Shown piece by piece: positions 47,529 through 64,000 of a DNA stretch of 64,000 nt. The notes below the pieces were generated by a model. That model made no database searches, was not told the DNA's origin, and saw only the letters and a program-made list of their open reading frames with translations. Each line of letters starts with the position of its first letter. Position 1 is the stretch's first letter. The DNA is taken from assembly GCA_021780075.1 (NCBI GenBank), contig JAJXZL010000044.1, forward strand, positions 1 through 64,000, written 5' to 3'. The DNA is from Acidobacteriota bacterium. Its GTDB lineage: Bacteria; Acidobacteriota; Terriglobia; Terriglobales; Acidobacteriaceae. Made by a program: the position numbers and the translations under genes.

Positions 47529-47762
47529 CTTGCTGTCCCCAATCAACCGTCACCAAGGCTGAGCGGATTGCGGCAAGAAGTATAAGCCTGTTTTCGGCGT
47601 CATAGACATGGAAATTTAACCGGAATTGTTGCAACTACTTGCGCACTCACCCACAAATGCCACGTCTTCCATTGATTTATAGATTTGGCTGACTCATAGT
47701 CCGCAACGTTCGCCGTTCCAGACGTCGAATACAAGCCAAACACAAACAGAAGAGGAGGAGTG

Positions 47763-48848: not shown

Positions 48849-50399
48849 TCAATGCGCGTTGCTCGATGCGTTTTCTGGAATGCCTAGGGCAGAAGAGCGT
48901 TGCACATTGTCGACCAATTCGTACCTCATCAGATGCGATCGCTTTTCCTTTTGCGCGTCTCTCAGAGCGACGAGCCGCTTAACCAATGTGGGAACTTCCT
49001 GCTTGTGGTCAGATTTACGCAGCGTGAGAATGAGGCGATAGAGAGCTTCCTGATTGTCAGGGTCGCTTTGCAGAACAGCTTCGCATTGCTCCGCAGCCAT
49101 TGCCGTCTTTCCTTCGCTTAGATAGAGGTCGGCAAGTATCTCGCGCGCCACGGCAAGGCTGGAGTCGAGCTTGACGGCTTCCTGTGCTTCCCGCAAAGCT
49201 TCAGCATAGTCAGCGCTGCCAGCTTCGGCGCCCCGCTGGCGCAGGGTTTCTGCCAGTAGATAGTGATCGAAAGCAATTCCAGGATGATCACGGACCTGCT
49301 GTCGAAAGCGCACGACACTCCCGTTCAGATCGTGGCGTTGTGTTGCGATGATGCCCTCGGCGGTGCCGGCAAAGGAGAGGTTCGGATTGAGCTGGTGTGC
49401 AGCCTCAAAATCATTGGTTGCCTTTTCAAATTCTCCCAATTGAGCATAGAGAATACCCCGTGCAATGTAGAGTTGCCCTGCGCGGGGGAGCAGGTGAACG
49501 CCAGCATTCAGCATGTCGATGCCAACTTGAAAGGAGGAATGGTCGCTGGCCAGATTTGCAAACCAGACGTACGCTTTTGGGTCCTGAGGGTTCGCCTCAA
49601 TGGCCTTGCGCAGTAGAGCGACAGCCTGCGGAGTATCATTGCGCGCCTCATCCACATCGGCAGCCAAGATCAGGACGCCCTCATTCGTCGTGCCAGACTG
49701 AATGAGCGGCTGCAAAGCAACATGGGCATCATCGAATCGCTTCGCATTCCAGTAAGCCAGCGAAAGGTTATAGCGTGCGGCAGGGTTCTCCGGTTGCAAT
49801 GCTTGAGCCGTCTGGAACTGCGCGATGGCTTCGTCGAAGCGGTGCTCCTGGGCCAGACAAACGCCATATCTTGCCAGCGCGACTGGTTGGGTGGCGATCA
49901 CCTGCTGCGCTTGTTGAAAGTGGATAACAGCTTCCCTGCAGTCATCCTGTTGCGCGGCAATCATTCCTGCCATGGCGTGCGCTGTGGGATCGTCAGGGCG
50001 GAGAACTAGAATTCGCTGGAGAAGGGGTCCGGCCTCGCCGTCGTTCTGCTGATAACTTACTTGTGCTGCTCCTTCGAGGGCAGGTAAATAGTCCGGCTTG
50101 AGCCGCAGCGCGTGTTTATAGGAGTCCAATGCAGCCCGGCGTTTCCCAGAACCTGAATTGGCCATGCCCTGAAGTGCCCATAACCGAGGGTCTTGGGAAT
50201 CGTGTTTGAGGGCAGAGGACGCGAGAGCAAGGGCGTTTGCATAGTGCTGAGCCCGCAAGGCTTCCTCTATTTGCAGGATTACTGAGCGGTCCGCTTGACA
50301 TGACGCATTATGGGCAAGCGCTGCGACACCAGCGAGCATGCACCAGCACAGCACTTTTGTGATCCGGTTGCGTGATGTATATAAAACGTCCAGGAACAC
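48849..50399 (-). CDS. Exported TPR-repeat protein
   Basis: A 516-residue protein with an N-terminal signal (VLCWCMLAGVAALAHNASCQ) and TPRs across the whole mature part (for example AALDSYKHALRLKPDYLPAL and EAIAQFQTAQALQPENPAAR). The frame opens with GTG at 50399; other starts at 50354 (GTG) or 50339 (ATG) would shorten the signal and cannot be excluded. The signal may end at a Cys (NASCQ), which could be a lipoprotein site, though the preceding residues do not form a strict lipobox. It lies downstream of a TonB receptor gene on the same strand with a strong hairpin between. Role inferred as scaffold. Confidence 0.82.
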   Translation of the reverse strand: MFLDVLYTSRNRITKVLCWCMLAGVAALAHNASCQADRSVILQIEEALRAQHYANALALASSALKHDSQDPRLWALQGMANSGSGKRRAALDSYKHALRLKPDYLPALEGAAQVSYQQNDGEAGPLLQRILVLRPDDPTAHAMAGMIAAQQDDCREAVIHFQQAQQVIATQPVALARYGVCLAQEHRFDEAIAQFQTAQALQPENPAARYNLSLAYWNAKRFDDAHVALQPLIQSGTTNEGVLILAADVDEARNDTPQAVALLRKAIEANPQDPKAYVWFANLASDHSSFQVGIDMLNAGVHLLPRAGQLYIARGILYAQLGEFEKATNDFEAAHQLNPNLSFAGTAEGIIATQRHDLNGSVVRFRQQVRDHPGIAFDHYLLAETLRQRGAEAGSADYAEALREAQEAVKLDSSLAVAREILADLYLSEGKTAMAAEQCEAVLQSDPDNQEALYRLILTLRKSDHKQEVPTLVKRLVALRDAQKEKRSHLMRYELVDNVQRSSALGIPENASSNAH

Positions 50400-50496: not shown

Positions 50497-53400
50497 TCAG
50501 AACTCCAGTCTAGCTCCCAGTTGTCCTTGGCGCGGGATCTGCGTTGAGGTTGAAGTTCCGAAGGTGCTCACATCCTGAGCGTTGGCATCTACTCCCTGGA
50601 GGTTAACCCGGTTGAGCACGTTGAAGAAGTCAATCCGGAGTTCGAACTTGACCCGCTCAGAGATGCTGGTTACCTTCATCAAGGTCGCGTCCACTTGAGC
50701 AAAACCAGGATTCCGGAACTGGTTGATCTTCTCATTTCCTTCCTGGCCCACCTGCGGGAACGAGAATGGTCCGCAGTTGTACAGGTTTCCTCCACTGCAG
50801 TGGTTGAACAATCCATTACGGTAGCTACTTCGGCTAGTGGAGATGTGGTAGGAAGAGACATTCGGAATATCTGTATTGTCACCGTCCCCATTGAAATCTC
50901 CGCTGTCCGACTTGAAGACGACGTTCCCATTGATGTCGGTGGTCACGTCCAATGGAGCTGCTGTCACTACGGTAAAGGGCAGTCCAGACTGCAGGATGGC
51001 TACAGACGAAAGCTGCCAGCCCGAGGTCGCACGGCCTACCACTCCATGGCCTTCGTTGAGGCCGGGCAGATCATAGCCCCAGCCGAGTGAGAAGCGGTTA
51101 GGAACATCCCAGGCCGACGGTCCATAGAAGCGGTTGAGGGGATATTCGATTGGATAATTTCCCGAAGGCAGAGCTCCCGAATTGTCCTTCGATACTGCCC
51201 GCGTATAGGATGCAGTGACAAACCCTCGATGCGCGAAGCGGCCGTTCATGGCCAAGATGAACGCCGAGTAGTTCGACCACGGACCGTTATACGTGTAATT
51301 GATGGCGCCGAAGCTCGGATTCAACCTCGTCTGTGTTCCCTGACATATGGGAGGAGCACTCGGATTGGAGGGATCTGGCGTACATGACAGATGCTGCAAC
51401 AGGTCTCCTGCGTACACGTTAACGTCGCCCGAGAATGAGTTGCCGAAAGAACTTCCTCCGCCATACTGCAGGTTGCCCGAATGCTGCCCAACGTAGCCTA
51501 CACTGGCGACCATGTTCTGCATGAGCGAGCGCTGTAATGTAACAGACCAGGTGTTCGTGTAAGGCGACTTCAGATTGCCGTCAACTCCACCGACAGCAAT
51601 CTGCGCACCGGGGATGCCTCCCCGACTGTCCAGCGGCTGCCCCTGGAAAGCAGGATACGGGAAACCAAACGGATAAGTGTTCTGGGTTCCGTATCCGAAG
51701 ATGGGAGCTGCGGTTGAGCCGTTGTTGAAGAACGTCGGCAGAACGAAGCCAGGAGGATTGCCTTTCAGATTGTTTTCGGCATTTCCCAGTGTTACCCAAT
51801 CCCGGTAGATACCAAAGCCGCCGCGAAGCACCCACTTGCCGCTTCCTGTGGGATCCCAGGCAAAGCCGGCGCGCGGACTGAAGATCCAGTTCATGCTCTG
51901 GTTGTAGACGTGCCCCTGCTGCTTATTGACTCCATTTGCGACACGTACTGCCATCGTGGACCCTGTCCCGAGATGGAAGTTGGCCAACGGGGTTCCGGCG
52001 ACCGGATAGGGATTGCCGAAGTTGTCGTAGCGGACACCGTAATTGATGGTGAGCCGCCGGTTTGCCTTCCACGTATCCTGCGCGAAGACGCCGTGGGTCG
52101 TCTCGGCATATTCGTATTGCCCTGGCATCGGCTTGCCTGTAACCGGATTGTAGGAAAGTCCGGTTTCCGAGTAGGGATTGTCGTTAATGAGGTCAATCAT
52201 GTTGTTGTATTGGAAGGTCGGCTGCGCGAAAGACGGGGCAAAGAGGGCGAGATCATCTCCATGCCAGCCTTCGTAACCGATGCTGAAGGAGTGGGAGCCT
52301 TGGATGTGTGTAAATACATCACGCCAGTGGTAGTTGTGTTCTGCATACTGGCCGTCGGCAAAGCCGATTCCCCAGCCCACACCCAGACCGTTCACATTCA
52401 CGACCGGGACACTCAGCAGTCCGGTAGCCGATATTGTTCCCTGAAGATAGTTGTAACCAAAAGATGCCTCGTTCAGGGAGTTCGGTGAAAATGTATGGGT
52501 TTCGCTCCCCTGCGTTGAAATGACGGAGGAGGGATTGGTGGTGTTGAAGGCAGGACGAACGGCAGGACCTCCAGAGCCAAGCGTGTCTCGAAAGAGAGTT
52601 CCGTAGATACGGTCCTTGCTGAAGTATTTGTCAATACGGACGTTGTATTGCTTCGCATTCTGATAGCTGGAGGAGTTGAAGATACCGTTGTCAAATACGG
52701 GAGTAGCGCACGGAACGTTGTCTGTGCTCGGCGTATTGCAGCCAGTGTTGTTCAGAGTGTCCTGGGGTCCGAAGGCGTCCTGCGCAGTCGCTGCAACACC
52801 GGTCGTCGTAGCCGCAGAAGGACGGTACTTGGCCATGAGGTTGACTTCCGGAGAGCTTGGGCGCACCTGCTGTGCAAAGGCGAGGAAGGCTGGATCTTCA
52901 TAGGTCAAAACAGCGTTCCCGTTTGAATTCAAAGCCCGAAAGGGTTCGATACTGAAGAAGAAAAAGAGTTGGCGCTTGGGAATCACGGGACCGCCGATCC
53001 CAAAAGACAAATTAGTCGTGTGGAACGGAGCGACAGGAGTTGGGGGTGGAGGTCCGAATTCGCCACGTGCGTTCAGGTTCTGGTACGTGTAATAAATGCT
53101 GCCAAAGCCGTGGTACTCGGCGGTGCCCGACTTGGTCGTCATGATGGTCTGCATGGAACTTGTCTTGCCATAGTCGACTGTGTACGTGTTTGTCTGCACA
53201 CTCATCTCCGACAAAGCATCGGCATTGGGAACCAGTGTCAAAACGCCAGGATTGACATCAATATTGATGTCCAAACCATCTAGGATGTACTGGTTGCCAT
53301 TATTGCCGCGTCCATTGGCGCTGTAGTCGGCATTCTCGGTAAAGAAGTTGTTATAGCCGGCCGACCCAAGGCCAGACACGCCAGGGGCCAGGCCAAGCAG

Positions 53401-53865
53401 CGCGGTGGGGTTACGCGAGGGCAGCGGAAGGGATTGTATTTCCTCATTGTTGATGGTCAGCTGGTCACGGCTGTCAGAGGTATCAAGGAGAGGAGCCTCC
53501 GCAGTGACTGACACGCTGGATACAGCACCGCTTACCGGCAAGGTGAGGACAATATTACGGTTCTCAGCCGTGGAAAGAACGAAGCTGACGGCAGCGTTGT
53601 TGAATCCCTGAGCAGATGCGGTAATAACATAGTTGCCGGGGGCGATGCTCGGGAAACGATAAGAGCCGAATTCATCGGCGGATCGGGTTTGCGAGACTTT
53701 CGTGTCGCTGTTTAAAAGCGTGACGCTCGCTTTTGCGACCGCCGCACCGGACGAATCCTGCACGGTGCCTTGCACGCTCGACGAAAATTGTGCGAATGCG
53801 GGGGGCGCAGCGAGCATGGCTCCCGCCAACGCGACTCCAAACAACCGCTTGCTCCAAGAGCTCAT
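50497..53865 (-). CDS. TonB-dependent outer-membrane receptor with carboxypeptidase-like domain (Oar-like)
   Basis: A 1,122-residue receptor. The ATG at 53865 has AGGTGG 7 bases upstream and starts a clear signal peptide (LFGVALAGAMLAAPPAFAQF). A carboxypeptidase-regulatory-like domain (SSVQGTVQDSSGAAVAKASV ... FRFPSI-type strand YRFPSIAPGNYVITASAQGF) spans about 25-105, the plug follows (INNEEIQSLPLPSRNPTALL, YILDGLDINIDVNPG), and the barrel ends in LGARLEF with a terminal aromatic. It is divergent from the SUMF1-like/sensor kinase gene run, and the spacer holds a paired inverted repeat, so this receptor is a probable target of that two-component system (inference). Confidence 0.92.
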   Translation of the reverse strand: MSSWSKRLFGVALAGAMLAAPPAFAQFSSSVQGTVQDSSGAAVAKASVTLLNSDTKVSQTRSADEFGSYRFPSIAPGNYVITASAQGFNNAAVSFVLSTAENRNIVLTLPVSGAVSSVSVTAEAPLLDTSDSRDQLTINNEEIQSLPLPSRNPTALLGLAPGVSGLGSAGYNNFFTENADYSANGRGNNGNQYILDGLDINIDVNPGVLTLVPNADALSEMSVQTNTYTVDYGKTSSMQTIMTTKSGTAEYHGFGSIYYTYQNLNARGEFGPPPPTPVAPFHTTNLSFGIGGPVIPKRQLFFFFSIEPFRALNSNGNAVLTYEDPAFLAFAQQVRPSSPEVNLMAKYRPSAATTTGVAATAQDAFGPQDTLNNTGCNTPSTDNVPCATPVFDNGIFNSSSYQNAKQYNVRIDKYFSKDRIYGTLFRDTLGSGGPAVRPAFNTTNPSSVISTQGSETHTFSPNSLNEASFGYNYLQGTISATGLLSVPVVNVNGLGVGWGIGFADGQYAEHNYHWRDVFTHIQGSHSFSIGYEGWHGDDLALFAPSFAQPTFQYNNMIDLINDNPYSETGLSYNPVTGKPMPGQYEYAETTHGVFAQDTWKANRRLTINYGVRYDNFGNPYPVAGTPLANFHLGTGSTMAVRVANGVNKQQGHVYNQSMNWIFSPRAGFAWDPTGSGKWVLRGGFGIYRDWVTLGNAENNLKGNPPGFVLPTFFNNGSTAAPIFGYGTQNTYPFGFPYPAFQGQPLDSRGGIPGAQIAVGGVDGNLKSPYTNTWSVTLQRSLMQNMVASVGYVGQHSGNLQYGGGSSFGNSFSGDVNVYAGDLLQHLSCTPDPSNPSAPPICQGTQTRLNPSFGAINYTYNGPWSNYSAFILAMNGRFAHRGFVTASYTRAVSKDNSGALPSGNYPIEYPLNRFYGPSAWDVPNRFSLGWGYDLPGLNEGHGVVGRATSGWQLSSVAILQSGLPFTVVTAAPLDVTTDINGNVVFKSDSGDFNGDGDNTDIPNVSSYHISTSRSSYRNGLFNHCSGGNLYNCGPFSFPQVGQEGNEKINQFRNPGFAQVDATLMKVTSISERVKFELRIDFFNVLNRVNLQGVDANAQDVSTFGTSTSTQIPRQGQLGARLEF

Positions 53866-54022
53866 GATATTTCCACCTCTCACTGATCAGCTGATGCCAA
53901 ACCTTGGGGATACTACTAGGGCACAGAAATAGAACGGTGTCTGCGCAACCGTAGCTTTTGATTGCGCAAGTCTAGAAAGGTGAATGTGGCGGGCGCATGA
54001 GCAGATTAGACCCCCCTCTATC

Positions 54023-54091
54023 TAGTACAAATGAACCGGATGCAAACTTTCTCGTGTCGGCCTGAATGGCGAACTTTTCCCATTTGTACTA
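54023..54091. promoter_or_regulatory. Paired inverted repeat in the divergent promoter
   Basis: TAGTACAAATG (54023-54033) and its exact reverse complement CATTTGTACTA (54081-54091) lie 47 bases apart in the 285-base spacer between the TonB receptor (starting 53865) and the SUMF1-like fusion gene (starting 54151). The arrangement fits two binding sites for one dimeric regulator, for example the NarL-type protein encoded at 59583. Confidence 0.55.
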
Positions 54092-54150
54092 TGGACCGCA
54101 TATCACGCCCTTGATATCGTCGTCAGCAGCCCTTCGGGAGGAATACGTCA

Positions 54151-56325
54151 GTGCAATTCGATGTCTTTAAGGACTGGAGCAGCGGCTTGCTGGGCCGCGC
54201 AACAGCCCTTACCTTTTTGCTCTTGCTCGGCGGCTCCGTATATTCATCGCCTGTGGCAGTAGCTCAAGACACTAACTATCCGCCCGTTGACGCCCAGATT
54301 CCGGGCCCCACGAAAGCTGCGGATCGGAAGGCCTGGCTTGAGGACCTGCGCCACTGGCGGCAGGAGCGTCTGGATCGCATTGGTTTCGATGACTCCAACT
54401 ACCGCAGGCCTGATCTTTCCTGGACGCAGAGGAATTTTGTTTGTTCTCAAATGATGATCGAAGAGCGGGATTTCTACGACCACGACAAGATGGTCTACAC
54501 AGTAGACAACTATCTGGGCCGGGTAGAGAAGGAGATCGGTGGAACCGATAGTGTTCTGGTATGGGATACATACCCCAACCTTGGAGTGGATGACCGCAAC
54601 CAGTTTGACCGGTTGCGCGACATGCCGGGTGGAATCGCCGCATTGAAACAGATGGTGGCGGAGTTCCATCGGCGCGGCGTGAAGGTCATCTTCCCCGAGA
54701 CGCCGTGGGACAGAGGAACACGCGACGAAGACCGCAAGGACTGGGTTGCTCAGGCCGAATTGATGAAGGAGATTGGCGCCGATGGGTTGATGGGCGACAC
54801 GATGGACGGCATGCCGCGCGTCTACCTATCCGCTTCTGATGCCGTGCACCATCCGCTTGCCCTTCACCCAGAAGGGCTTCCAGCAGAGGAAACGCTCGCA
54901 TGGAATGAGATGACGTGGGGCTACTGGAGCTATCCGTTTGTGCCTATGATCAGTCGCTACAAGTGGCTGGAAACTCGTCATATGCCTATGCTTGTGAGCG
55001 GGGGAAGGCATAGAATCGACGGGATCCAGGCAGCTTTCTTCAATGGCGTGGGCTACTCGAATCAGCAGGACGTGATCGGTATTCACAACGGGTTCACGGC
55101 GCGCGATGCAGAAGCAATTCGTCGCGTAATGCAGATCGAGCGCGCCTTTGCGCCTCTGCTTGTCAGTCCGGACTGGCAACCGCACGCGCCGACAATGCAG
55201 GAAGGCGTGTTTGCGAGCCGTTTTCCAAGTTCAGATCAAACACTATGGACGATCATTAACCGAAACGAGTACAAAGTCACCGGTGCACAAGTTGAGATAA
55301 CACCAGAACCCGGCATCCGCTATTTCGATCTGTGGCATGGTGTCGAACTTCATCCGAAAGCATCAACGAACGGCAACGCGATCCTGATGTTCGATATAGA
55401 GAGCAAGGGCTTCGGCGCCATACTGGAGTTACATTCCCGCGACATTCCAGATGCAGTGGCAATGGTTATGAAGGAGATGCATGAGCGCTCAATCAAGCCG
55501 TTGAGTGAATACTCTGATCAGTGGCTGCCCTTACAGCAATCCATGGTCAAGAATGAGGAAGCCAAGGGTTCAAGAGCTCCGCACTCGGGCATGATTCTCA
55601 TTCCCGCTGCTGAGTTTGACTTCAAGGTGCACGGCATCGAGGTCAATAACCACAATGAGCTTGGCATGGATGTGCAGTATCCGTGGGAAGATGCGCCGCA
55701 CCGGGATCATGACCATTTGATTGCGATCAAGCCGTTCTACATCGATCGATATCCAGTCACGAATGCAGAGTTTAAGCGCTTTCTGGACGAAAGCCATTAT
55801 CAGCCTCGCGACGGCCACAATTTTCTTCGCGATTGGCATGACGGGGCGTATCCAGCTGGTTGGGGCCAGAAGCCGGTAACGTGGGTCTCGCTGGAGGATG
55901 CTCGTGCATATGCGCAATGGGCAGGCAAGCGGCTGCCCAATGAGTGGGAGTGGCAATATGCTGCGCAGGGTCTCGACGGTCGCACATATCCGTGGGGAAA
56001 TGAATGGGATCCACGCGCGGTTCCTACGCCAGACAAGAGTCGCCGGCTGACGAGCCCGAACGATGTTGGCGCTCACCCGAGGGGAGCCAGCCCGTTTGGC
56101 GTGTTGGATATGGTGGGAAACGTCTGGCAGTGGACAAACGAATTTGAGGACTCGCACACCCGATCCGCAACTCTGCGCGGAGGGAGCCACTACCAGGCTC
56201 AAGGTTCCTGGTGGTATTTCCCCCAGGCATATCGACTCGATCAGCATGGCAAGTATCTCCTCATGGCACCCAGCATCGACCGATCAGGAACAATAGGATT
56301 CCGTTGCGCAGCAGATGTAGACTGA
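54151..56325 (+). CDS. Exported fusion of a TIM-barrel-like domain and a SUMF1/FGE-like domain
   Basis: A 724-residue exported protein. The GTG at 54151 has GGAGG about 9 bases upstream. A signal (LTFLLLLGGSVYSSPVAVAQ) is followed by a 350-residue region resembling a glycosidase TIM barrel (VLVWDTYPNLGVDD, GVKVIFPETPWDRG, IGADGLMGDTMDGMP). Residues about 481-720 are a formylglycine-generating-enzyme/SUMF1-like domain (MILIPAAEF, KPFYIDRYPVTNAEFKRFLD, RLPNEWEWQYAAQGLDGRTY, FGVLDMVGNVWQWT, TLRGGSHYQAQGSWW, GTIGFRC). The Cys used by true FGE near RGGSY..C is missing, so sulfatase activation is unlikely; carbohydrate or glycan recognition is more plausible. First of four co-directional genes. Confidence 0.82.
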   Translation: MQFDVFKDWSSGLLGRATALTFLLLLGGSVYSSPVAVAQDTNYPPVDAQIPGPTKAADRKAWLEDLRHWRQERLDRIGFDDSNYRRPDLSWTQRNFVCSQMMIEERDFYDHDKMVYTVDNYLGRVEKEIGGTDSVLVWDTYPNLGVDDRNQFDRLRDMPGGIAALKQMVAEFHRRGVKVIFPETPWDRGTRDEDRKDWVAQAELMKEIGADGLMGDTMDGMPRVYLSASDAVHHPLALHPEGLPAEETLAWNEMTWGYWSYPFVPMISRYKWLETRHMPMLVSGGRHRIDGIQAAFFNGVGYSNQQDVIGIHNGFTARDAEAIRRVMQIERAFAPLLVSPDWQPHAPTMQEGVFASRFPSSDQTLWTIINRNEYKVTGAQVEITPEPGIRYFDLWHGVELHPKASTNGNAILMFDIESKGFGAILELHSRDIPDAVAMVMKEMHERSIKPLSEYSDQWLPLQQSMVKNEEAKGSRAPHSGMILIPAAEFDFKVHGIEVNNHNELGMDVQYPWEDAPHRDHDHLIAIKPFYIDRYPVTNAEFKRFLDESHYQPRDGHNFLRDWHDGAYPAGWGQKPVTWVSLEDARAYAQWAGKRLPNEWEWQYAAQGLDGRTYPWGNEWDPRAVPTPDKSRRLTSPNDVGAHPRGASPFGVLDMVGNVWQWTNEFEDSHTRSATLRGGSHYQAQGSWWYFPQAYRLDQHGKYLLMAPSIDRSGTIGFRCAADVD

Positions 56326-56417
56326 GGCTGATGTGTGCGGAGCATGGACGGCCGAGTGATCACATCAAGAGTAGTTCCCAGGCCGGCGGAGGTCTACTCA
56401 CGAGAAGGTGAAGTCGC

Positions 56418-57446
56418 ATGTTCGTGAGCAGCAAGGAAAGTAAGTTTGTTAGAAACGCTTGCGATGCAATGCTTCGGTCGAGGGGCAAGTGTTTGACCCT
56501 GTCCATCCCATTCGTCGTTATCCTGGCCAGCTTGATTGGAGGCTGCAGGGCACGGCACATGCAGGTGGTTGCCATCGTCCCGAGAACCACTGGCATGTCG
56601 CTATGGGAAGCGGCGCATGAGGGTGCAGAAGCAGCGGCGGCCACTGCGCACCTAAGTACATACTGGAACGCACCCACACGCGAGGATGATATCAACAGTC
56701 AGATCGCTCTGGTGAATCGCGTTATAGATGGTGGATACTCTGGAATCATTTTGTCTCCTGACCAGCCGCTCGCTTTGATGACACCTGTGCGCAGGGGTCT
56801 AGCCAAGGGGATCCCAATGGTGATCTTCGGATCACCACTGTCAATGCCGCCAGGCGGGAAGCTCACTTACATTCTTAGCGACGAAAACCAGGCGGGAAGT
56901 CTAGCAGCAATGCGAGTTGGAGAACTGCTGCACGGCAAGGGCACAATCGCCATTGTGGGGATCAACTTCGACATTATCGGGGTGGTGGATCGTGTACGCG
57001 CCTTCGAAACTGTTTTGCACGGCCAGTTCCCTGGTGTCACGATCGCGGAAAAGAAAACGGGATCGTTCAATGTGCCCTATGAACAGCAGGCAACTGAAGA
57101 GGTGCTGATCGCTCATCCTAATCTGGATGCGATCGTAGCGGTCACCGCCGATGCAACCCGCGGGTCTTATGCCGCACTGGATGAGTTGCACATGCTTCAC
57201 AGAGTACGGTTAATAGGCTTTGACCAGGATTTGATTCAGCCAATCGTCACAGGCGATTTGGATTCAGTTGTTGTGGAAGACACCTATGACATGGGATATC
57301 GTGCTGTAGAGCTGATCGACGATCAGCTCCATGGGAAGACGGTCCCGGCTTTGATCAAGGTGAGCCCACGACTGGTAACACGTAGCAATCTTAACTTGCC
57401 AGAGATCCGGCGCATTCTGGCGCTGGATTCAGAGTGGAACCAATGA
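56418..57446 (+). CDS. Sugar-binding lipoprotein (periplasmic binding protein, LacI-like fold)
   Basis: A 342-residue lipoprotein. The ATG at 56418 has AAGGTG upstream. The hydrophobic segment FVVILASLIGGC ends in a lipobox, anchoring the mature protein to the membrane. The mature part is a Peripla_BP_4-type sugar-binding fold: QVVAIVPRTTGMSLWEAAHE, ALVNRVIDGGYSGIILSPDQ, GKLTYILSDENQAGSLAAMR, TIAIVGINFD, NLDAIVAVTADATRGSYAAL and VRLIGFDQD. No ABC permease or ATPase gene is nearby; instead the kinase gene starts inside its stop codon. It therefore probably presents a sugar signal to the kinase rather than serving transport (inference). Confidence 0.88.
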   Translation: MFVSSKESKFVRNACDAMLRSRGKCLTLSIPFVVILASLIGGCRARHMQVVAIVPRTTGMSLWEAAHEGAEAAAATAHLSTYWNAPTREDDINSQIALVNRVIDGGYSGIILSPDQPLALMTPVRRGLAKGIPMVIFGSPLSMPPGGKLTYILSDENQAGSLAAMRVGELLHGKGTIAIVGINFDIIGVVDRVRAFETVLHGQFPGVTIAEKKTGSFNVPYEQQATEEVLIAHPNLDAIVAVTADATRGSYAALDELHMLHRVRLIGFDQDLIQPIVTGDLDSVVVEDTYDMGYRAVELIDDQLHGKTVPALIKVSPRLVTRSNLNLPEIRRILALDSEWNQ

Positions 57447-59629
57447 TTACCGGCCGTATTACAAGATCGGGGCTCGGTGTCCTTGTATCCAGCCTGGCAA
57501 TCGCGGCGGTCATAAGCGGCATTTTCTGGAGGTTTTACTTCTATCACCCCCAGCATCACCTCCCGTATCACGATTCATTCGCGGCAAACATCGCGGACGA
57601 GTGGCAAGGCTTCGGAGGAACTTGGTCAATCGTCGACGGAACGATGCGCAATGATTCGGATGATCGTGGAGCTAAGCTTCTCGCCGGCTCGACCAAGTGG
57701 AAAAACTATGTTTTGTCCGGTGACGTGAAGCTGCTTGGGACAGATGGTGATGCAGGGTTCATTGTTCGGTCCAGTAACGAGGAAGAGGGCGTCGATTCCT
57801 ACAGTGGCTATTATGCTGGCCTGCGAACAAGAGACAACCGGCTCATCCTTGGCCGGGCCAACCACGACTGGAAGGAGGTGCAGAGCGTTTTAATACAGGG
57901 AGGTACGCAGGCGTTCCAGTGGTATCACTTACAGATCGTCACTTACGGGTGCACCATTGTAGTATCGGCTTCTCCAACAAGTAATCCGGCCGCTATAACA
58001 GCGGTTTCGCTCTCCGACAAGAACTGCCTGCGATCAGGAAGAATCGGGCTACGCTCCTATTCCTCGGGTGGTGCATGGAAAGACGTGCAGGTACGCGTTG
58101 CAACTGCAGGTGACCTGCGCAATGCCTTATTGCAAGTTCCTGCCCAACGAAAAGGCTTGGGGAAAGAGTCGAATAGTGACTTGCCTTATTTTGGCTCTGG
58201 ATCGCGCCCTTCCAGCACGAACCTTCCTTTGCCCGCTCCTGCAAGTTCCGTTCAGGCAATCAACAGCTTAAGCCTAATTACACCGCAGACCAAAGTCACA
58301 ATCCGCGGTGTCGTAATTCTCGCCAAGCCTCTTTATGTGCAGGATCCGACGGGTGGTGTAGCCGTAAGTGCGAAGTCGCTGGCCCCCCTCAAGATCGGCG
58401 ACGAGGTACAGGTGACGGGTTACGTGGACCCCGGATACTACAGCACTCGCATACAAAATTCCACGGTAAACGCACTTTGGTCGCACACCCCCGTCCCGCC
58501 CTTCTCCACCACCTCAGCTCAGGCGGCGAGCGGCTCTTTTGACGACATGTTCATCGAACTCGAGGGTACGCTTCAGCGCAAGACAAAGGCTCCCGACAAT
58601 AACCTTGTGCTCGATCTGGAAAGCAACCAGCAACCGTTTCAAGCCATCGTGAATCTTCGCCGAGGCGACCATCTTCTCCAAGACGTTGAACTAAATAGCA
58701 CGGTGCGACTCCGAGGCATCAGCGTGAGCGATCCTCAGTACACCCATGAACGATTCCCTTTCGTACTGCTTATGCGATCTGCCGATGATCTCGAAGTGCT
58801 TTCGGGACCACCCTGGTGGAATACACGTCATGTCGTATTGCTCAGCGTCGTATTATTGATTCTCATTCTCATTGCCCTCTACATGCAGAACCGGATCGAG
58901 CACTGGAGATGGCGGACGATTCTCGAAGAACGAGAAAACTTGGCCCACGAGATTCACGACACCCTGGCTCAAAGCTTTGCGGGGCTTGGATTTCAACTTG
59001 AAGCAATTCGGGATCGAGTACCGGCAGACATTCCGCTTGTACACGAGCAGTTAGATCTTGCCTGCGATTTGGTGCGCCGAAGCCATCAGGAGGCACGACG
59101 CAGCGTCGTCGCCCTGCGTCGGGACTCCGACTCTACCCTGGATCTGCTGACCACGCTGGAGCGATGTGCGCGCAAGATGGTAGACCGGTGTTGTGTCGTC
59201 GTCAGCGCAACACAATCGGGGGACGTTCGCGTTCTCCCCGCCGCGCTCAGTGACGCTCTTTTCCGGATCGGACAGGAAGCAATTTCCAACTCTGTGCGCC
59301 ATGCGCAACCCACGCGAATCTCAATCGCTATCTGCTATAGAGACAACGAGGTCCAACTTACCGTTGAAGATAACGGAATCGGCTTTGAAATGGGACATGA
59401 ATCAGCCGGATTTGGACTACAGGGGATTCAGCGGCGAACCCGAGGGGTTGCAGGCATCGCTCAGATCATAAGCTCCCCAGGTATGGGCACACGTGTTACG
59501 GTGACTGCCCCTATTCCGCGCAATCGCCGATGGTTTGAATGGCCCTTAACTCTTTGGCACACTTATGGGAGGTATCGTTCCTATGCTCAAACACGAAAGC
59601 AAATGCATTCGCGTCCTGATCGCGGATGA
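57443..59629 (+). CDS. Sensor histidine kinase with carbohydrate-binding-like exported region
   Basis: A 728-residue membrane kinase. The ATG at 57443 overlaps the lipoprotein stop (ATGA); a GTG nine bases earlier is open. One helix near residues 10-28 and another at 461-480 (VVLLSVVLLILILIALYMQN) frame a large exported region: a concanavalin-like/DUF1080-type domain (DEWQGFGGTWSIVDGTMRND, GDAGFIVRSSNEEEGVDSYS) and an OB-fold-like part (KVTIRGVVILAKPLYVQDPT, IGDEVQVTGYVDPGYY). The cytoplasmic part is HisKA_3 (ENLAHEIHDTLAQSFAGLGF, phospho-acceptor His505) and HATPase_c (IGQEAISNSVRHAQP, VEDNGIGFE, GFGLQGIQRR). It overlaps the response regulator gene by 47 bases. The ligand may be a sugar delivered by the lipoprotein. 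Confidence 0.92.
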   Translation: MITGRITRSGLGVLVSSLAIAAVISGIFWRFYFYHPQHHLPYHDSFAANIADEWQGFGGTWSIVDGTMRNDSDDRGAKLLAGSTKWKNYVLSGDVKLLGTDGDAGFIVRSSNEEEGVDSYSGYYAGLRTRDNRLILGRANHDWKEVQSVLIQGGTQAFQWYHLQIVTYGCTIVVSASPTSNPAAITAVSLSDKNCLRSGRIGLRSYSSGGAWKDVQVRVATAGDLRNALLQVPAQRKGLGKESNSDLPYFGSGSRPSSTNLPLPAPASSVQAINSLSLITPQTKVTIRGVVILAKPLYVQDPTGGVAVSAKSLAPLKIGDEVQVTGYVDPGYYSTRIQNSTVNALWSHTPVPPFSTTSAQAASGSFDDMFIELEGTLQRKTKAPDNNLVLDLESNQQPFQAIVNLRRGDHLLQDVELNSTVRLRGISVSDPQYTHERFPFVLLMRSADDLEVLSGPPWWNTRHVVLLSVVLLILILIALYMQNRIEHWRWRTILEERENLAHEIHDTLAQSFAGLGFQLEAIRDRVPADIPLVHEQLDLACDLVRRSHQEARRSVVALRRDSDSTLDLLTTLERCARKMVDRCCVVVSATQSGDVRVLPAALSDALFRIGQEAISNSVRHAQPTRISIAICYRDNEVQLTVEDNGIGFEMGHESAGFGLQGIQRRTRGVAGIAQIISSPGMGTRVTVTAPIPRNRRWFEWPLTLWHTYGRYRSYAQTRKQMHSRPDRG

Positions 59630-60224
59630 TCACCCAGTCGTTCGCACGGGTTTGACAAGCATGTTGAACGCACAAAAGCAGGTGGAAGTCATCGGTACTG
59701 TGTCAAACGGCCATGATGCCGTGAAAGCTGTACAAGAGCAGTCGCCGGACGTTCTGCTGCTCGATCTGCGCATGCCGGGCATGGACGGATTGGAGACTTT
59801 GCGGGCCTTAAAGGCTCATCATCTCCAGACGAGAGTCATTATTCTCAGCAGTTTCGAGGCAGACGAAGATATCTACCAGTCGGTTCAAGAGGGTGCAATG
59901 GGGTATCTGCTCAAGGACACCTCAAAGAGCCAGATGCTTGAGGCAATTGCCTCGGTTCATGCAGGTAAACGCTACATCAAGGGACAAATAGCGGCACGAC
60001 TGGCCGAGCGCATGTTGCGGTCAAATCTCACTGCGCGCGAGCACGAGATTCTTGAAATGATTGCCAAGGGATTGACGAACAAGCAAATTGCCAGTGTGCT
60101 CAGCATCAGCGATAATACCGTTCGAAATCACCTCAACAGCATCATGGAGAAACTTGAGGTCTCGGATCGCACGGAAGCTGCGACGACCGCCATTCAGCAA
60201 GGTATCATCCGTCTGTCGGATTGA
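59583..60224 (+). CDS. NarL/FixJ-type response regulator
   Basis: A 213-residue two-component regulator. The ATG at 59583 is chosen because GGGAGG lies 11 bases upstream; an ATG at 59565 is possible. The receiver domain starts IRVLIADDHPVVRTGL, with the phosphorylated Asp61 in PDVLLLDLRMPGMDGLETL and the conserved Lys in GAMGYLLKDTSKSQ. The C-terminal LuxR-type helix-turn-helix is NLTAREHEILEMIAKGLTNK with QIASVLSISDNTVRNHLNSI. It is the partner of the overlapping kinase. Its sites may include the paired inverted repeat in the TonB receptor promoter. Confidence 0.96.
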   Translation: MLKHESKCIRVLIADDHPVVRTGLTSMLNAQKQVEVIGTVSNGHDAVKAVQEQSPDVLLLDLRMPGMDGLETLRALKAHHLQTRVIILSSFEADEDIYQSVQEGAMGYLLKDTSKSQMLEAIASVHAGKRYIKGQIAARLAERMLRSNLTAREHEILEMIAKGLTNKQIASVLSISDNTVRNHLNSIMEKLEVSDRTEAATTAIQQGIIRLSD

Positions 60225-60253: not shown

Positions 60254-62647
60254 CTAAGAGGCGGGGCGTTTCATTTGCCAGATAAGCCGATATACATGGC
60301 GGTTGCGCGCGGTGAAAGAGAAGTTGTGCGAAGCAATGTTGGAAATGCGTGTGTGATCACGCGTGTCCTCTACAGAGATTGAACCGGCACTGCAGGCTCC
60401 AATCACTTGAAGATTTCCCCGGGCATCAACTTCATAGCGGAGAGATAGCTTTCCGTGCCTGAAGGCAAGATTCTTGATTCCATATAAACCACCCTTCGCG
60501 ATCAGGTTTTGCGGAAGGTTAGGTGCGAGGATGACGATGTCTGGCTCGGCTGTCTCTCGAACACCGAGGAGGTTGCGAATAATATGCGCGGCCATCACCG
60601 CACCCCATCCGTAGCCCTCGCCTCCACAGGCTCCTTCCGGACCCCACATTTCACAGCTAATTCCCGGCCAACCCAGGTGAGTCATTCCGCTTGGGGACGG
60701 ACTGCGCCTGTCCATACTGGTGTAAATTCGTTCAGCAATGCTATACACGACCTCGGAGGCCAGGTCGAGTTGGCTCGCATTCCACAAGGATTCAACATAG
60801 GGCAACAGGAGTGAGGACCAGATTAATGGATCCTGACCACCATCGACTCTGCCTGCCATCGAATCCTCATAGAAGCCGCGAAGCGCGGGAAGCATAGCTT
60901 GGATCTGCGCTCTCGATGCGATGTTGCAGAAGATAGGAGCTACCTGGCCAACGTCGTGTCCTACCGACGTGATGGGCCGCATGCTACGCGTGTCAAAGTC
61001 ATTGAACCAGTCTTTGCCGTTCCACATCTGCTGCGTCTTCGACGAATAACTGGATTCGAGTCCGCTCCATTGTTCGACATCTTTGCTTTTTTCCAGTTCT
61101 TTCGCGAAGTACGCGAGGATTCCAGCCGCCTGTGACGTTGCCGCCTGGAGTTCAACGAGTCGGGCGAATTCGGTGGTTTCGCCGCCGGTAGGCTCGTTGA
61201 TGAGAAACCGCTTCGATCCATCCATTCCGCTTTCCCAGCTGCACTTGGAAACGATGAACTTGTCCCCGTCGCTTCGGTTGTCCAGGGTCCAGCGCAGAAA
61301 TGCAGCGAGCCTCGGATAAACAAGAGCCAACCACTCCTTGTCTCCTGTACGTTGGTAGATGCACATTGCGCCGAAGAAGGGGTAGCACCAGGAGATTGAG
61401 GTACCGCACTCGCTGCCGTCGGTGGCAACCATGTTTGCTTCGCCATCTTCCCTCGCACACGGTACGTTGGGCGCAATGGCGTCAAGAAACTGCCCAGCAA
61501 ACACGGCTTTTGCCGCCGTGGGATCGGCGTAGCTCAACGCCCACATATCGATTGAGGTTTCCGCCAGTACATTTCTAGGCGCCTGGATCTGCATGGCATC
61601 CCAGGGATGACGGTAGATGCCAATCGGCCTTCGGACCATCATGCGTAATGTTTCAAAGTCATATATCCATCCGTTCTTCCAGTGAGATGGCCAGTCACCA
61701 GTCAGGTGTGGCGCACTCTGCCAGAACGCCGCATCACTGGCGTACTTCCGCTCCAATTCACCAGCCGCTTCGACCTTCGAACGATTCAGCTCTTTCAGTG
61801 CAGCTTGCCTGTTCACCCCACGAGACATGTAAACCGTAATGCCGTGATCCATCAAGGGCGGCGACACATCATAACGGAGAACTGCCGTTAGCGGATCGGT
61901 TCCGTATGCCGTAGCTCCTAGCTGAGTCGTAGGCGCCGAGTGGGGCGGCGCCTCTTCCGCTCCTCCTTGCGCCGATCTCGAGTTGCTTGGGCGATCCGCG
62001 CCTGTCGCGAATACCGTGCCGGCTGCGAAGCCATGAGTAATCCAAGCATCGGATACACGGTCGAAATAGGCAGCAACCCCGTCCCCACCCCACCAACGTG
62101 CGCCCCCCAATTGGTATTGGTGCTGAACAATCAAGCTAAGCACCTCTCGTCGCTTATTGTCGGGGCCAAAGTGCACACGCGCAGCTAGAGTGTTCTCGCC
62201 ACTCTGGAAAAAAGAGCAATCAAGTTGGAAGCCGCTGATGGAGACCCTGTATGTAAATACGTCTTTGCTGTGATGTGTTGAGACTAGCTCGCCGTCACGG
62301 AAGTCCTCAAACAAAAAGACGGTGCGCCCGTCGATAACGAAGCCGATTTGAAGTGACGCGTGATAGACACCGTTCCGGCGGTAGTCGAAGTAGCCGCCTG
62401 GCCCTGCGGGGTAATAGATCCCGAATCCTACGCCAGGCACTGAGCGAAACACCCCGCTGGGATGAAGGTTCCAGCAATGATAGGGGTTGTCGAGATATCC
62501 AAACGGCGTGAAACCTGTTCCGGAAACACTATCGAAGGAGGTCCCAGGCACTTCCGGCGCTTGGGTCGCATGGGATAGTGCCGAACTCAAGGGAATTGAA
62601 AGAGCAGTGCCTGCAGCAGTGAGGTTGAAGTGACGACGAGTAATCAT
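60254..62647 (-). CDS. Exported six-hairpin glycosidase (GH63/trehalase-like)
   Basis: A 797-residue exported enzyme. The ATG at 62647 begins a Tat-like signal (ITRRHFNLTAAGTALSIPLS); the frame is open 73 codons further without support. The N-terminal half (about 40-290) is a beta-sandwich (GFGIYYPAGPGGYFDYRRNG, DGRTVFLFEDFRDGELV); the C-terminal half is an (alpha/alpha)6 barrel with RHPWDAMQIQAPRNVLAE, SECGTSISWCYPFFGAMCIY, a SKCSWESGMDGSKRFL block resembling the acid motif of GH63-type enzymes, and GGEGYGWGAVMAAHIIRNLL near the end. Substrate unknown; an alpha-glucoside, mannoside or rhamnoside is possible. It follows the GH127-like gene by 77 bases on the same strand, and converges on the two-component genes. 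Confidence 0.82.
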   Translation of the reverse strand: MITRRHFNLTAAGTALSIPLSSALSHATQAPEVPGTSFDSVSGTGFTPFGYLDNPYHCWNLHPSGVFRSVPGVGFGIYYPAGPGGYFDYRRNGVYHASLQIGFVIDGRTVFLFEDFRDGELVSTHHSKDVFTYRVSISGFQLDCSFFQSGENTLAARVHFGPDNKRREVLSLIVQHQYQLGGARWWGGDGVAAYFDRVSDAWITHGFAAGTVFATGADRPSNSRSAQGGAEEAPPHSAPTTQLGATAYGTDPLTAVLRYDVSPPLMDHGITVYMSRGVNRQAALKELNRSKVEAAGELERKYASDAAFWQSAPHLTGDWPSHWKNGWIYDFETLRMMVRRPIGIYRHPWDAMQIQAPRNVLAETSIDMWALSYADPTAAKAVFAGQFLDAIAPNVPCAREDGEANMVATDGSECGTSISWCYPFFGAMCIYQRTGDKEWLALVYPRLAAFLRWTLDNRSDGDKFIVSKCSWESGMDGSKRFLINEPTGGETTEFARLVELQAATSQAAGILAYFAKELEKSKDVEQWSGLESSYSSKTQQMWNGKDWFNDFDTRSMRPITSVGHDVGQVAPIFCNIASRAQIQAMLPALRGFYEDSMAGRVDGGQDPLIWSSLLLPYVESLWNASQLDLASEVVYSIAERIYTSMDRRSPSPSGMTHLGWPGISCEMWGPEGACGGEGYGWGAVMAAHIIRNLLGVRETAEPDIVILAPNLPQNLIAKGGLYGIKNLAFRHGKLSLRYEVDARGNLQVIGACSAGSISVEDTRDHTRISNIASHNFSFTARNRHVYRLIWQMKRPAS

Positions 62648-62724
62648 TATTTTCTCTTGGGTAGAGGCTGGATTCACCGTGCTCTTAATCGCAATACATG
62701 CTTGGTCGCGGAGGTTTAAAAAGG

Positions 62725-64000
62725 TTAACCGTCTTTCAGCGACGGAAAACAGGTGATGCGCAGTTTGGCTGCCGCGTAGGGTATGAGAGTTACCGTTTCG
62801 TCGGGCTCTGTACTTTCCACGGGACTTGCTGGCATCGGATCGGCAACGCCTTCCTCGGCCTGCCACTTCGGCACTTTGCGCGCATGAATCTGCAGTGTCA
62901 CAGGAGGATGATGCCGAGTGAAGGGTCCCGCACCATCATTGACTACTGCTGGATGCTCCTGTGCGGTAATCAGCTCCTCTCGAGGATTGACCGCATAGTT
63001 CCATTGTGTGGCTGGGTACACCTGCCAATCAGCGGTCATGCAGCGATCACGAAGTTTCAGCCAGTCTTCGCCAATTCCATAGGAGAAAACAAGTGGCCCG
63101 CGCTCGACCGCAATCGAGTTGTTATACCAATGCGAAATACGGGGACGCAAGGGCAGTGTCAGATGCAGTCGGTCGCCGGGCTTCCAGGTACGTTCCAGCA
63201 CTGCGAACGTACCAGTGCTTAGATTTGGAACTCTTGTACCGTTGACCTCAAGGATCGCACCATCAGCCCACTTGGGAATGCGCAACCGCAGCGGGAATTC
63301 GATTGGGCGCTCAGGATTGACAGTCACAGTGACTTCGGATCCAAAGGGGTAGTCTGTGTCTTCACTCAGGTGCACACGAGTATTGCGCACGACCGTTTCC
63401 GCTTGGCATGGAGCATAGAGCGGAAGGACAATCCCGTCGTCATCCGACAGCATGACAAGACTAGACGTAAACTTGGGCCAGCCTTGGCTGAAATTTGCCG
63501 TGCAGCAACCAAACTCCGGATCGAGACCATAAAGGTTAGACTCCGGCCCATCTGTGGTCCACGGTTTTCGGTGCAGACTGCATTCCACCTGATTCGGTTC
63601 CTGATTGTACTGGTGCGCCCACATGTCGTCAGTGAAAGTTCCCGGCAGAGCATTGAAGGCAATCTTCTCCAATTTGTCGCAGAGACTGACGCTGCCAAGG
63701 ATCGCAATTGCTTGCTCCAGAGAGAACATCGTCTCCACGACCGTACACAGTTCCGTTCCCTGGACTGGATTGGGGCCTGCGAGATGTTCGTCTGCCGAAA
63801 ACATCCCATTGGCGAGTCCGTGATAACGGTAAAGCTCGTCAAGCTGATGAAAGAATGCCTTCCTGTCCGCATCTTGACCTGAAATGACAGACCACACGGC
63901 TGAGGCCTTGATGGCCTGTGCGTTATTTACTCCGTGGGTGGTGAGCGATGTCTCCGTTTGGTGACCGCTGATAAGACCGACCGATTCCGGTGTAACGCGT
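62725..64000 (-). CDS. GH127-like beta-L-arabinofuranosidase, N-terminus outside the window
   Basis: The C-terminal 424 or so residues of a protein whose start lies beyond the right edge; the frame is open to the last base, with RVTPESVGLISGHQTETSLT at the visible start. It matches the enzyme at 37525-39609 nearly colinearly, sharing LTTHGVNNAQAIK, HLAGP, TELCTVVETMFSLEQA (Glu-x-Cys ligands), WAHQYNQEPNQVECSLHRKP, GPESNLYGLDPEFGCCTANF with the paired cysteines, and RISHWYNNSIAVERGPLVFS. All catalytic features visible are retained. A GTG at 63897 could be mistaken for a start but lies inside the conserved domain. It is probably co-transcribed with the six-hairpin glycosidase downstream. Confidence 0.88.
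   Translation of the reverse strand, partial: RVTPESVGLISGHQTETSLTTHGVNNAQAIKASAVWSVISGQDADRKAFFHQLDELYRYHGLANGMFSADEHLAGPNPVQGTELCTVVETMFSLEQAIAILGSVSLCDKLEKIAFNALPGTFTDDMWAHQYNQEPNQVECSLHRKPWTTDGPESNLYGLDPEFGCCTANFSQGWPKFTSSLVMLSDDDGIVLPLYAPCQAETVVRNTRVHLSEDTDYPFGSEVTVTVNPERPIEFPLRLRIPKWADGAILEVNGTRVPNLSTGTFAVLERTWKPGDRLHLTLPLRPRISHWYNNSIAVERGPLVFSYGIGEDWLKLRDRCMTADWQVYPATQWNYAVNPREELITAQEHPAVVNDGAGPFTRHHPPVTLQIHARKVPKWQAEEGVADPMPASPVESTEPDETVTLIPYAAAKLRITCFPSLKDG

Follow-up and report, generated by a model that had tools for sequence, protein, structure and literature searches.

The sensors that come closest to the system studied here couple a substrate-binding protein (SBP) to a kinase. 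Our system lies at positions 50497-60224 of contig JAJXZL010000044.1 from a bacterium of the Acidobacteriaceae, where genes for a sugar-binding lipoprotein, a sensor histidine kinase and a NarL/FixJ-type response regulator are divergent from the gene of a TonB-dependent receptor (TBDR); the whole stretch analysed, contig positions 1-64,000, is referred to as the window. XylFII-LytS(-YesN) of Clostridium beijerinckii is a D-xylose three-component system with a sugar-binding protein and a membrane kinase (PMC6321045, PMC10384115). In CuaDSR of Ruminiclostridium cellulolyticum, also termed a three-component system, a lipoprotein SBP is found beside a sensor and a regulator (PMC10384115), and araP, araS and araT are named together with an arabinan cluster of Geobacillus stearothermophilus (PMC4617443). 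In the SusCD polysaccharide utilization loci (PUL) of Bacteroidota with hybrid two-component systems (HTCS), a periplasmic glycan sensor specific to the locus controls a TBDR and hydrolases (PMC10766802). We compare our locus with these systems.

XylFII-LytS resembles our locus in that a membrane kinase is paired with a sugar-binding protein whose fold class is also that of our lipoprotein; the Protein Data Bank (PDB) matches of the latter include XylFII structures. XylFII-LytS, however, is Gram-positive and has a LytS-type kinase and an AraC-type regulator, whereas our locus has a HisKA_3 kinase with a CBM66-like ectodomain, a NarL-type regulator with a GerE domain and a TBDR as proposed target, and thus falls outside the XylFII-LytS family proper. 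AraPST, likewise Gram-positive, has a sugar-sensing role and is linked to the araEGH ATP-binding cassette (ABC) transporter; AraP is both the top phmmer match and a close structural match of our lipoprotein, but no permease of the CUT2 class is found here. CuaDSR shares with our locus a lipoprotein SBP that adjoins sensor and regulator, and differs in that it concerns cellobiose, has the CuaABC ABC importer and shows another kinase architecture. In an HTCS, kinase, receiver and AraC output are joined in one hybrid polypeptide; 2x7x, one of the PDB matches of the lipoprotein, is a structure that we take to be an HTCS sensor domain. With a TBDR as its proposed target our system would occupy the niche that HTCS proteins fill, yet it is not a Bacteroidota HTCS, as kinase, NarL-type output and binding protein are three separate proteins and the receptor is of the Oar type.

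In our opinion the locus is probably a PUL-like unit for sugar acquisition, governed by a periplasmic three-component sensor that would activate the TBDR and hydrolase genes. By analogy, the sensor would work like the SBP-coupled three-component sensors, and its kinase class, its regulator class and the proposed TBDR target would be what is new. Among the papers listed in literature searches none describes such a system in Acidobacteriota, which is weak evidence of absence, as most subscription journals are not covered. Soils are rich in Acidobacteriota, whose genomes can encode many TBDRs (by our own count, this one has about 30 TBDR open frames of a single type), and how these bacteria choose the glycans to import is little described. 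Sensor, regulator and predicted operator together would make regulons readable from sequence and open the assignment of receptors to glycans to testing; this extends to genera in culture, Granulicella and Edaphobacter for instance.

Layout of the locus

Open reading frame (ORF) calls and a Pfam domain search gave the following genes and gene parts.

50497..53883, minus strand: TBDR of the Oar/CarboxypepD_reg type, likely start ATG 53865, with Pfam matches to OMP_b-brl_4 (E=1.1e-117), CarboxypepD_reg and Plug; the presumed regulated importer
54151..56325, plus strand: SUMF1-like fusion with a signal-like N-terminus, FGE-sulfatase domain at residues 522-720; accessory cargo
56418..57446, plus strand: sugar-binding lipoprotein (periplasmic binding protein, PBP), Peripla_BP_4 (E=3.5e-38); the proposed sensing subunit
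57434..59629, plus strand: sensor histidine kinase, likely start ATG 57443, with PF06439 at residues 55-221, HisKA_3 and HATPase_c
57554..58117, plus strand: kinase ectodomain 1, residues 41-228; PF06439, CBM66-like beta-sandwich
58238..58807, plus strand: kinase ectodomain 2, residues 269-458; beta-rich, possibly OB-like, candidate docking part for the PBP
58928..59518, plus strand: HisKA_3 and HATPase_c core with the presumed phospho-acceptor His508
59565..60224, plus strand: NarL/FixJ-type response regulator, likely start ATG 59583, with Response_reg and GerE (Pfam)

A first-pass annotation of this DNA had proposed the order TBDR / SUMF1-like fusion, PBP, kinase, NarL-type regulator, which ORFs and Pfam domains confirm. 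The overlaps that it described are also recovered: if translation of the kinase begins at ATG 57443, the PBP and kinase genes meet in ATGA, and if that of the regulator begins at ATG 59583, its gene shares 47 bases with that of the kinase. The presence of both a receiver and a GerE domain places the regulator in the NarL/FixJ group. The CBM66-like kinase ectodomain, an inverted repeat at 54023-54091 and the neighbouring genes for a GH127 protein, a six-hairpin glycoside hydrolase (GH)-like protein and a TPR protein are additions to that annotation.

Conservation of the core genes

We have studied the conservation of the locus in two sets of relatives. A search of 149 relatives with the kinase gave a set of 34 loci including that of the window; among the matches listed, the 33 near-full-length kinases besides the window's own all come from the same genus, and in 34/34 loci the genes for PBP, kinase and regulator are neighbours, the regulator being convergent in some. 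The second set, of 77 loci (78 with the window), was obtained by scanning named genomes with an alignment of the kinase sensor; its loci were thus picked by the kinase sensor, independently of the presence of a PBP. These belong to Granulicella, Edaphobacter, Acidipila, Bryocella, Silvibacterium, Candidatus Sulfotelmatobacter and other Acidobacteria(ceae), and include two Streptomyces loci with the first domain only and one metagenome-assembled genome (MAG) labelled Binataceae. Several loci share one genome and 9 of the 78 measure less than 10 kb, so that not all are independent or complete.

The CBM-like, OB-like and kinase parts occur together in 71 of the 78 loci, and next to every one of these full-architecture kinases (71/71) a PBP gene is present directly upstream on the same strand, with a junction that overlaps or abuts in 60 of 64 gene pairs (longest-ORF starts). 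The seven other loci are L131, L182 and L192, which are at contig ends and have a PBP, L185 and L186, which have neither the OB-like part nor a PBP, and the two from Streptomyces. A TBDR lies within 8 kb of the kinase in 67/71 loci, or in 46 of the 47 for which both flanks are complete, the single exception among the latter (L174) being also devoid of a regulator; a regulator-like gene is found within the same distance in 67/71. An SBP gene thus adjoins a kinase/regulator pair, as in three-component sensors. GH127-like matches occur in 32 and a relative of the TPR protein in 37 of the 71 kinase loci.

The SUMF1 fusion and the hydrolases vary among loci, as could be expected if ordinary genes without a joint function had become neighbours by chance; this explanation is hardly credible, however, as core and palindrome (see below) are conserved over several genera and the PBP in 71/71 loci contradicts it. 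The first-pass annotation had made its reading depend on a gene order conserved beyond this strain, and for the core of PBP, kinase, regulator and TBDR this is what we find (71/71 and 67/71). Its idea of an acidobacterial counterpart of SusCD/HTCS loci was too wide: 10 genomes matched in a phylum-wide sample of 199, and the full sensor was present in 3 of the 199 (the window's own included), all from the window's family, to which the sensor system looks restricted.

The lipoprotein and the missing CUT2 permease

The lipobox cysteine of the PBP (Cys43) is kept in at least 90% of 62 sequences, and the model of the protein (pLDDT 92.4) has a sugar-binding fold, which matches many sugar-binding proteins, GanP and XylFII among them. 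AraP (6sw4_A) has the lowest root mean square deviation (rmsd) among the best 50 matches (2.0 Å, TMt 0.88), and is third by E-value among the matches listed. The genome contains 11 Peripla_BP_4 matches, 8 of them above the cut-off; one match (L013) starts like a LacI-type repressor.

The CUT2 permease family PF02653 (BPD_transp_2) has 0 matches in this genome, which is 99.5% complete; 12 of 14 control genomes were positive, and other ABC permease classes and secondary transporters were not searched. A role of the PBP in CUT2 transport is therefore unlikely, and since there is no CUT2 permease to which sugar could be delivered, the PBP would rather dock on the kinase. An SBP without a cognate permease of this class is again a trait of three-component sensors, and the earlier statement that the lipoprotein has no ABC partners is valid for the whole genome as far as the CUT2 class is concerned. 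The related suggestion that sugar is sensed outside the cytoplasm, in connection with the receptor, is supported on comparison by the PBP in 71/71 loci, the TBDR in 67/71, the absence of CUT2 and the palindrome in 35/39 regions; that the regulator controls the receptor is a proposal.

The same observations bear on the possibility that the glycan is sensed by the CBM66-like kinase itself, and that the PBP is a periplasmic buffer, or hands sugar over to a non-CUT2 inner-membrane transporter, without any part in signalling. Five kinases that lack the OB-like part and have no detectable PBP nearby (L012, on contig C39 of the window's own genome, L185, L186, L202, a 5.4-kb contig, and L203) all keep a regulator, and four of the five a TBDR, so that they may work alone; moreover, a hand-over partner could belong to the secondary transporters or ABC classes outside our permease search. 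We nevertheless consider this explanation unlikely, given the PBP beside 71/71 two-part kinases, the overlapping genes, the lipid anchor and the absence of PF02653.

The sensor kinase

In the AlphaFold2 model of the kinase (pLDDT 85.5, pTM 0.62, 66 sequences) a first transmembrane-like helix is followed by a beta-sandwich (residues ~41-228), a beta-rich part (269-458), a long helix and the HisKA_3/HATPase core. H508, N619 and D646 are invariant in the 66 aligned kinases, as are Cys173 and Cys198; the invariance of the two cysteines would fit a periplasmic disulfide. Ectodomain 1 has the CBM66 beta-sandwich fold, its best structural match being the CBM66 of Bacillus subtilis (4b1m_C: VIA-align Z 23.1, rmsd 1.8 Å over 155 residues) at an identity of 14-15%. 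Polar and aromatic residues of this domain are conserved across relatives, and it may bind carbohydrate. Ectodomain 2 is built of strands in the model and possibly folds OB-like: there is a weak hint of an OB-fold (YgiW, 1nnx, E=0.084), and the VIA-align coverage of the model is mainly of residues 40-226, outside this part.

Relatives in which the kinase is naturally dissected bear on the place where the PBP acts. The five kinases without the OB-like part have no PBP. In L193-L198 the CBM-like domain has a divergent gene of its own, and in L199 and L200 it is a separate stretch on the same strand, in each case beside a PBP and an OB-like kinase. Because PBP and OB-like part co-occur in these dissections, the OB-like part would be where the PBP acts, which suggests that it is the docking site. 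Some loci speak against this: L206 (a contig with runs of N, in which the frame is disrupted) combines a TBDR and a regulator with a kinase fragment that has the OB-like part, yet no PBP or CBM-like part is detectable there, and an OB-like region is also present in a GGDEF protein without a PBP (L015). L201, L204 and L205 are further partial relatives, with parts separate or missing and without a PBP. In a MAG (L126, 8954-12112), PBP and kinase share one open frame of 1052 aa, which is either a natural fusion or an assembly or sequencing frameshift.

Operator-like palindrome and possible promoter boxes

The intergenic region between the TBDR and SUMF1 fusion genes carries an 11/11 inverted repeat spanning 54023-54091, with the following elements.

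54023..54038, no strand: operator-like site 1, TAGTACAAATGAACCG, a 7-2-7 NarL-type inverted repeat with 11/14 consensus positions
54076..54091, minus strand: operator-like site 2, in opposite orientation, with one perfect half (TAGTACA) and one degenerate half; 10/14 by reading
53996..54001, minus strand: CATGAG (CTCATG on the minus strand), a conserved box at a distance of ~20 bp to the operator, which may be a -35-like element of the TBDR promoter

In the close relative L116, whose kinase is 83% identical, CATTTGTACTA is found exactly, and the DNA between the arms has diverged. The 11-mer arm occurs exactly only twice in the genome, both times at this locus (the second copy at 54081-54091), and with one mismatch at 5 genome sites versus 32 for the reversed pattern. 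In the relatives the arm is enlarged to a palindrome, with the consensus TAGTnCAnnTGnACTA, that consists of two inverted heptamers with a 2-bp spacer; inverted heptamers with 2-bp spacing are what NarL prefers, according to the cited passage (PMC4549865). Among 39 divergent regions (TBDR/PBP, two of them TBDR/SUMF), 35 have palindrome matches of at least 11/14 (Markov mean 0.25, largest 2) and 28 of at least 12/14 (Markov 0.0). With a matrix, 42 sites scoring at least 14 were found outside the training regions in 1.41 Mb, as compared to 3, 3, 2, 4 and 7 in shuffled sequences. By reading, 35 of these 42 are at gene starts: TBDR 17, GH127-type 13, other cargo 2 (one GtaA-type, one without a Pfam match), PBP 1, regulator 2; the other 7 are elsewhere. 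As these outside sites sit at TBDR starts, many loci in which the TBDR is not divergent from the PBP still have a site before the TBDR.

The flanks of the sites have an identity of 0.27-0.35 while the site is conserved, which is partly true by construction, as sites were picked by their match. CT[CT]ATG is present in 19 of 35 flanks at a median start of 20 bp from the operator (interquartile range 20-20; Markov shuffles 1.9), and a CTTG..TAnACT box in 12 of 35 (Markov 0.0), both patterns having been chosen post hoc after inspection of the flanks. The boxes on the two sides look like two promoters sharing a central site, an arrangement that would fit an activator bound ~60 bp upstream of each start.

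Several points weigh against an operator function. The palindrome template and the matrix were derived from the same loci. No site of at least 11/14 is present in 4 of the 39 divergent regions, and only 5 of 33 other regions upstream of a PBP have one (Markov 0.125); 12 of the 78 loci have no matrix match at a score of at least 10, and the split-gene loci L193-L198 all lack one. Nor is the consensus enriched in the window's genome, with 21 sites versus 37 in the control, a result that led us to reject a genome-wide regulon defined by pattern. Only at this locus and at its C39 paralogue do any of these 21 sites lie shortly 5' of a TBDR (by coordinate reading), and four others that were inspected (L212, L213, L218, L221) have no clear target. 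Finally, the sites of the window are imperfect, and a loose pattern should turn up by chance about once in a stretch as long as the window (mean 1.15), so that the case for an operator rests on conservation. The C39 paralogue is a PBP-less system (L012 8582-18156, equivalent to C39 44581-54155) with a CBM66-like HisKA_3 kinase, a convergent NarL-type regulator, an FG-GAP/UnbV protein and a TBDR that has a related palindrome, TGGTTAATTTGAACTA, upstream at L012 14776.

The palindrome might also belong to another regulator, such as a LacI-type or global factor, with the two-component system controlling something else. The NarL-type regulator is connected to the palindrome by family geometry and location only, and a LacI-type cluster (c19) is present in 4 of the 78 loci. 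We find this quite improbable in view of the 7-2-7 inverted heptamers, which fit NarL-type proteins as the cited passage describes them, and of the sites located also before TBDR, GH127 and regulator genes that are placed elsewhere in the locus. Hence it is probably the NarL-type regulator that would bind the palindrome.

Proposed mechanism

If the locus is a three-component sensor with its PUL-like targets, the hydrolases (GH127, six-hairpin GH and others), which are presumably exported, would release sugar that enters the periplasm via the TBDR. The lipid-anchored Peripla_BP_4 protein would bind this sugar and dock on the ectodomain of the kinase with which its gene overlaps, probably on the beta-rich, OB-like part, while the CBM66-like domain would either take in another carbohydrate signal or act as a structural platform. 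The NarL-type regulator would then be phosphorylated by the HisKA_3 kinase, and its dimer would bind the 7-2-7 palindrome between the divergent promoters and, acting as an activator rather than a repressor, turn on the receptor, sensor and hydrolase genes in a positive feedback.

A bolder version, which we put forward as a tentative and rather doubtful idea, is that of an Acidobacteriaceae class of PUL regulators that read two signals: the CBM66-like domain would sense polymer or oligosaccharide, and the docked PBP would report free monosaccharide. If this were true, receptor and hydrolases would be expressed only when degradable polymer is present, and the natural dissections in the kinase family would let the docking part be mapped.

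Cargo genes and possible ligand

The genes around the core are the following.

48849..50399, minus strand: TPR protein with a signal-peptide-like N-terminus and TPR Pfam matches, 3' of the TBDR; accessory
60254..62866, minus strand: six-hairpin glycoside hydrolase-like protein (MGH1-like, Pfam); cargo
62725..64000, continuing to contig position 64794, minus strand: GH127 beta-L-arabinofuranosidase-like protein, 689 aa; cargo

The whole GH127 gene has Pfam matches to both the catalytic and the middle domain, and the contig continues with GH127, a DUF5597 protein and GH39. Over all loci the cargo clusters comprise GH127, GH51-type (Alpha-L-AF_C), GH43, GH5-type, GH35/42-type with DUF5597, sulfatase and a GtaA-type hairpin protein, besides two clusters without a Pfam match. 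Because of the cargo, and because AraP is the closest PDB match of the single PBP sequence, the ligand in the window's clade might be a product of an arabinose-containing plant glycan, although this is a weak indication: when the PDB is searched with the PBP family profile, three other sugar binders rank before AraP, and at other loci the cargo includes sulfatase or GH5-type genes. Such different cargo suggests different ligands at those loci. A literature search on the arabinose ligand returned unrelated papers only.

The SUMF1 fusion, initially counted as part of the system, is better described as cargo. It is found in 3 of the 34 kinase loci (window, L076 and L077; 4 of the 34 contigs are ~10 kb or shorter), two of which, the window and L076, have it in the original order, and in 2 of 71 loci of the named set with the window; its relatives are mostly elsewhere, and we rejected it as a core part. 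That it is a formylglycine-generating enzyme (FGE) is unlikely, since the C-terminal GGS stretch does not show the cysteine pair that we assume to be the FGE hallmark. Its first ~500 residues have no Pfam match. Within them a domain of ~450 aa (54331-55686), possibly an enzyme domain, is conserved in 30 sequences with a mean column identity of 68%, and a profile search with it gave no significant solved relative (best E=0.76).

No SusD family member was seen among the window and cargo proteins in general domain scans, which included no dedicated SusD search; the TPR protein (cluster c4 in relatives) could be a functional stand-in for SusD. FG-GAP/UnbV_ASPIC proteins are encoded in 15 of the 78 loci, often beside a TPR gene (for example L151 2862-4622, cluster c6, and L012 10964-12916). 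The MAG labelled Candidatus Binataceae (L182) has GH127, six-hairpin GH-like and PBP genes and the start of a kinase, as a result of either horizontal transfer or mis-binning. Elsewhere in the window, 45276-47546 encodes a CadC-like protein with a winged-helix DNA-binding domain and PD40 propeller repeats.

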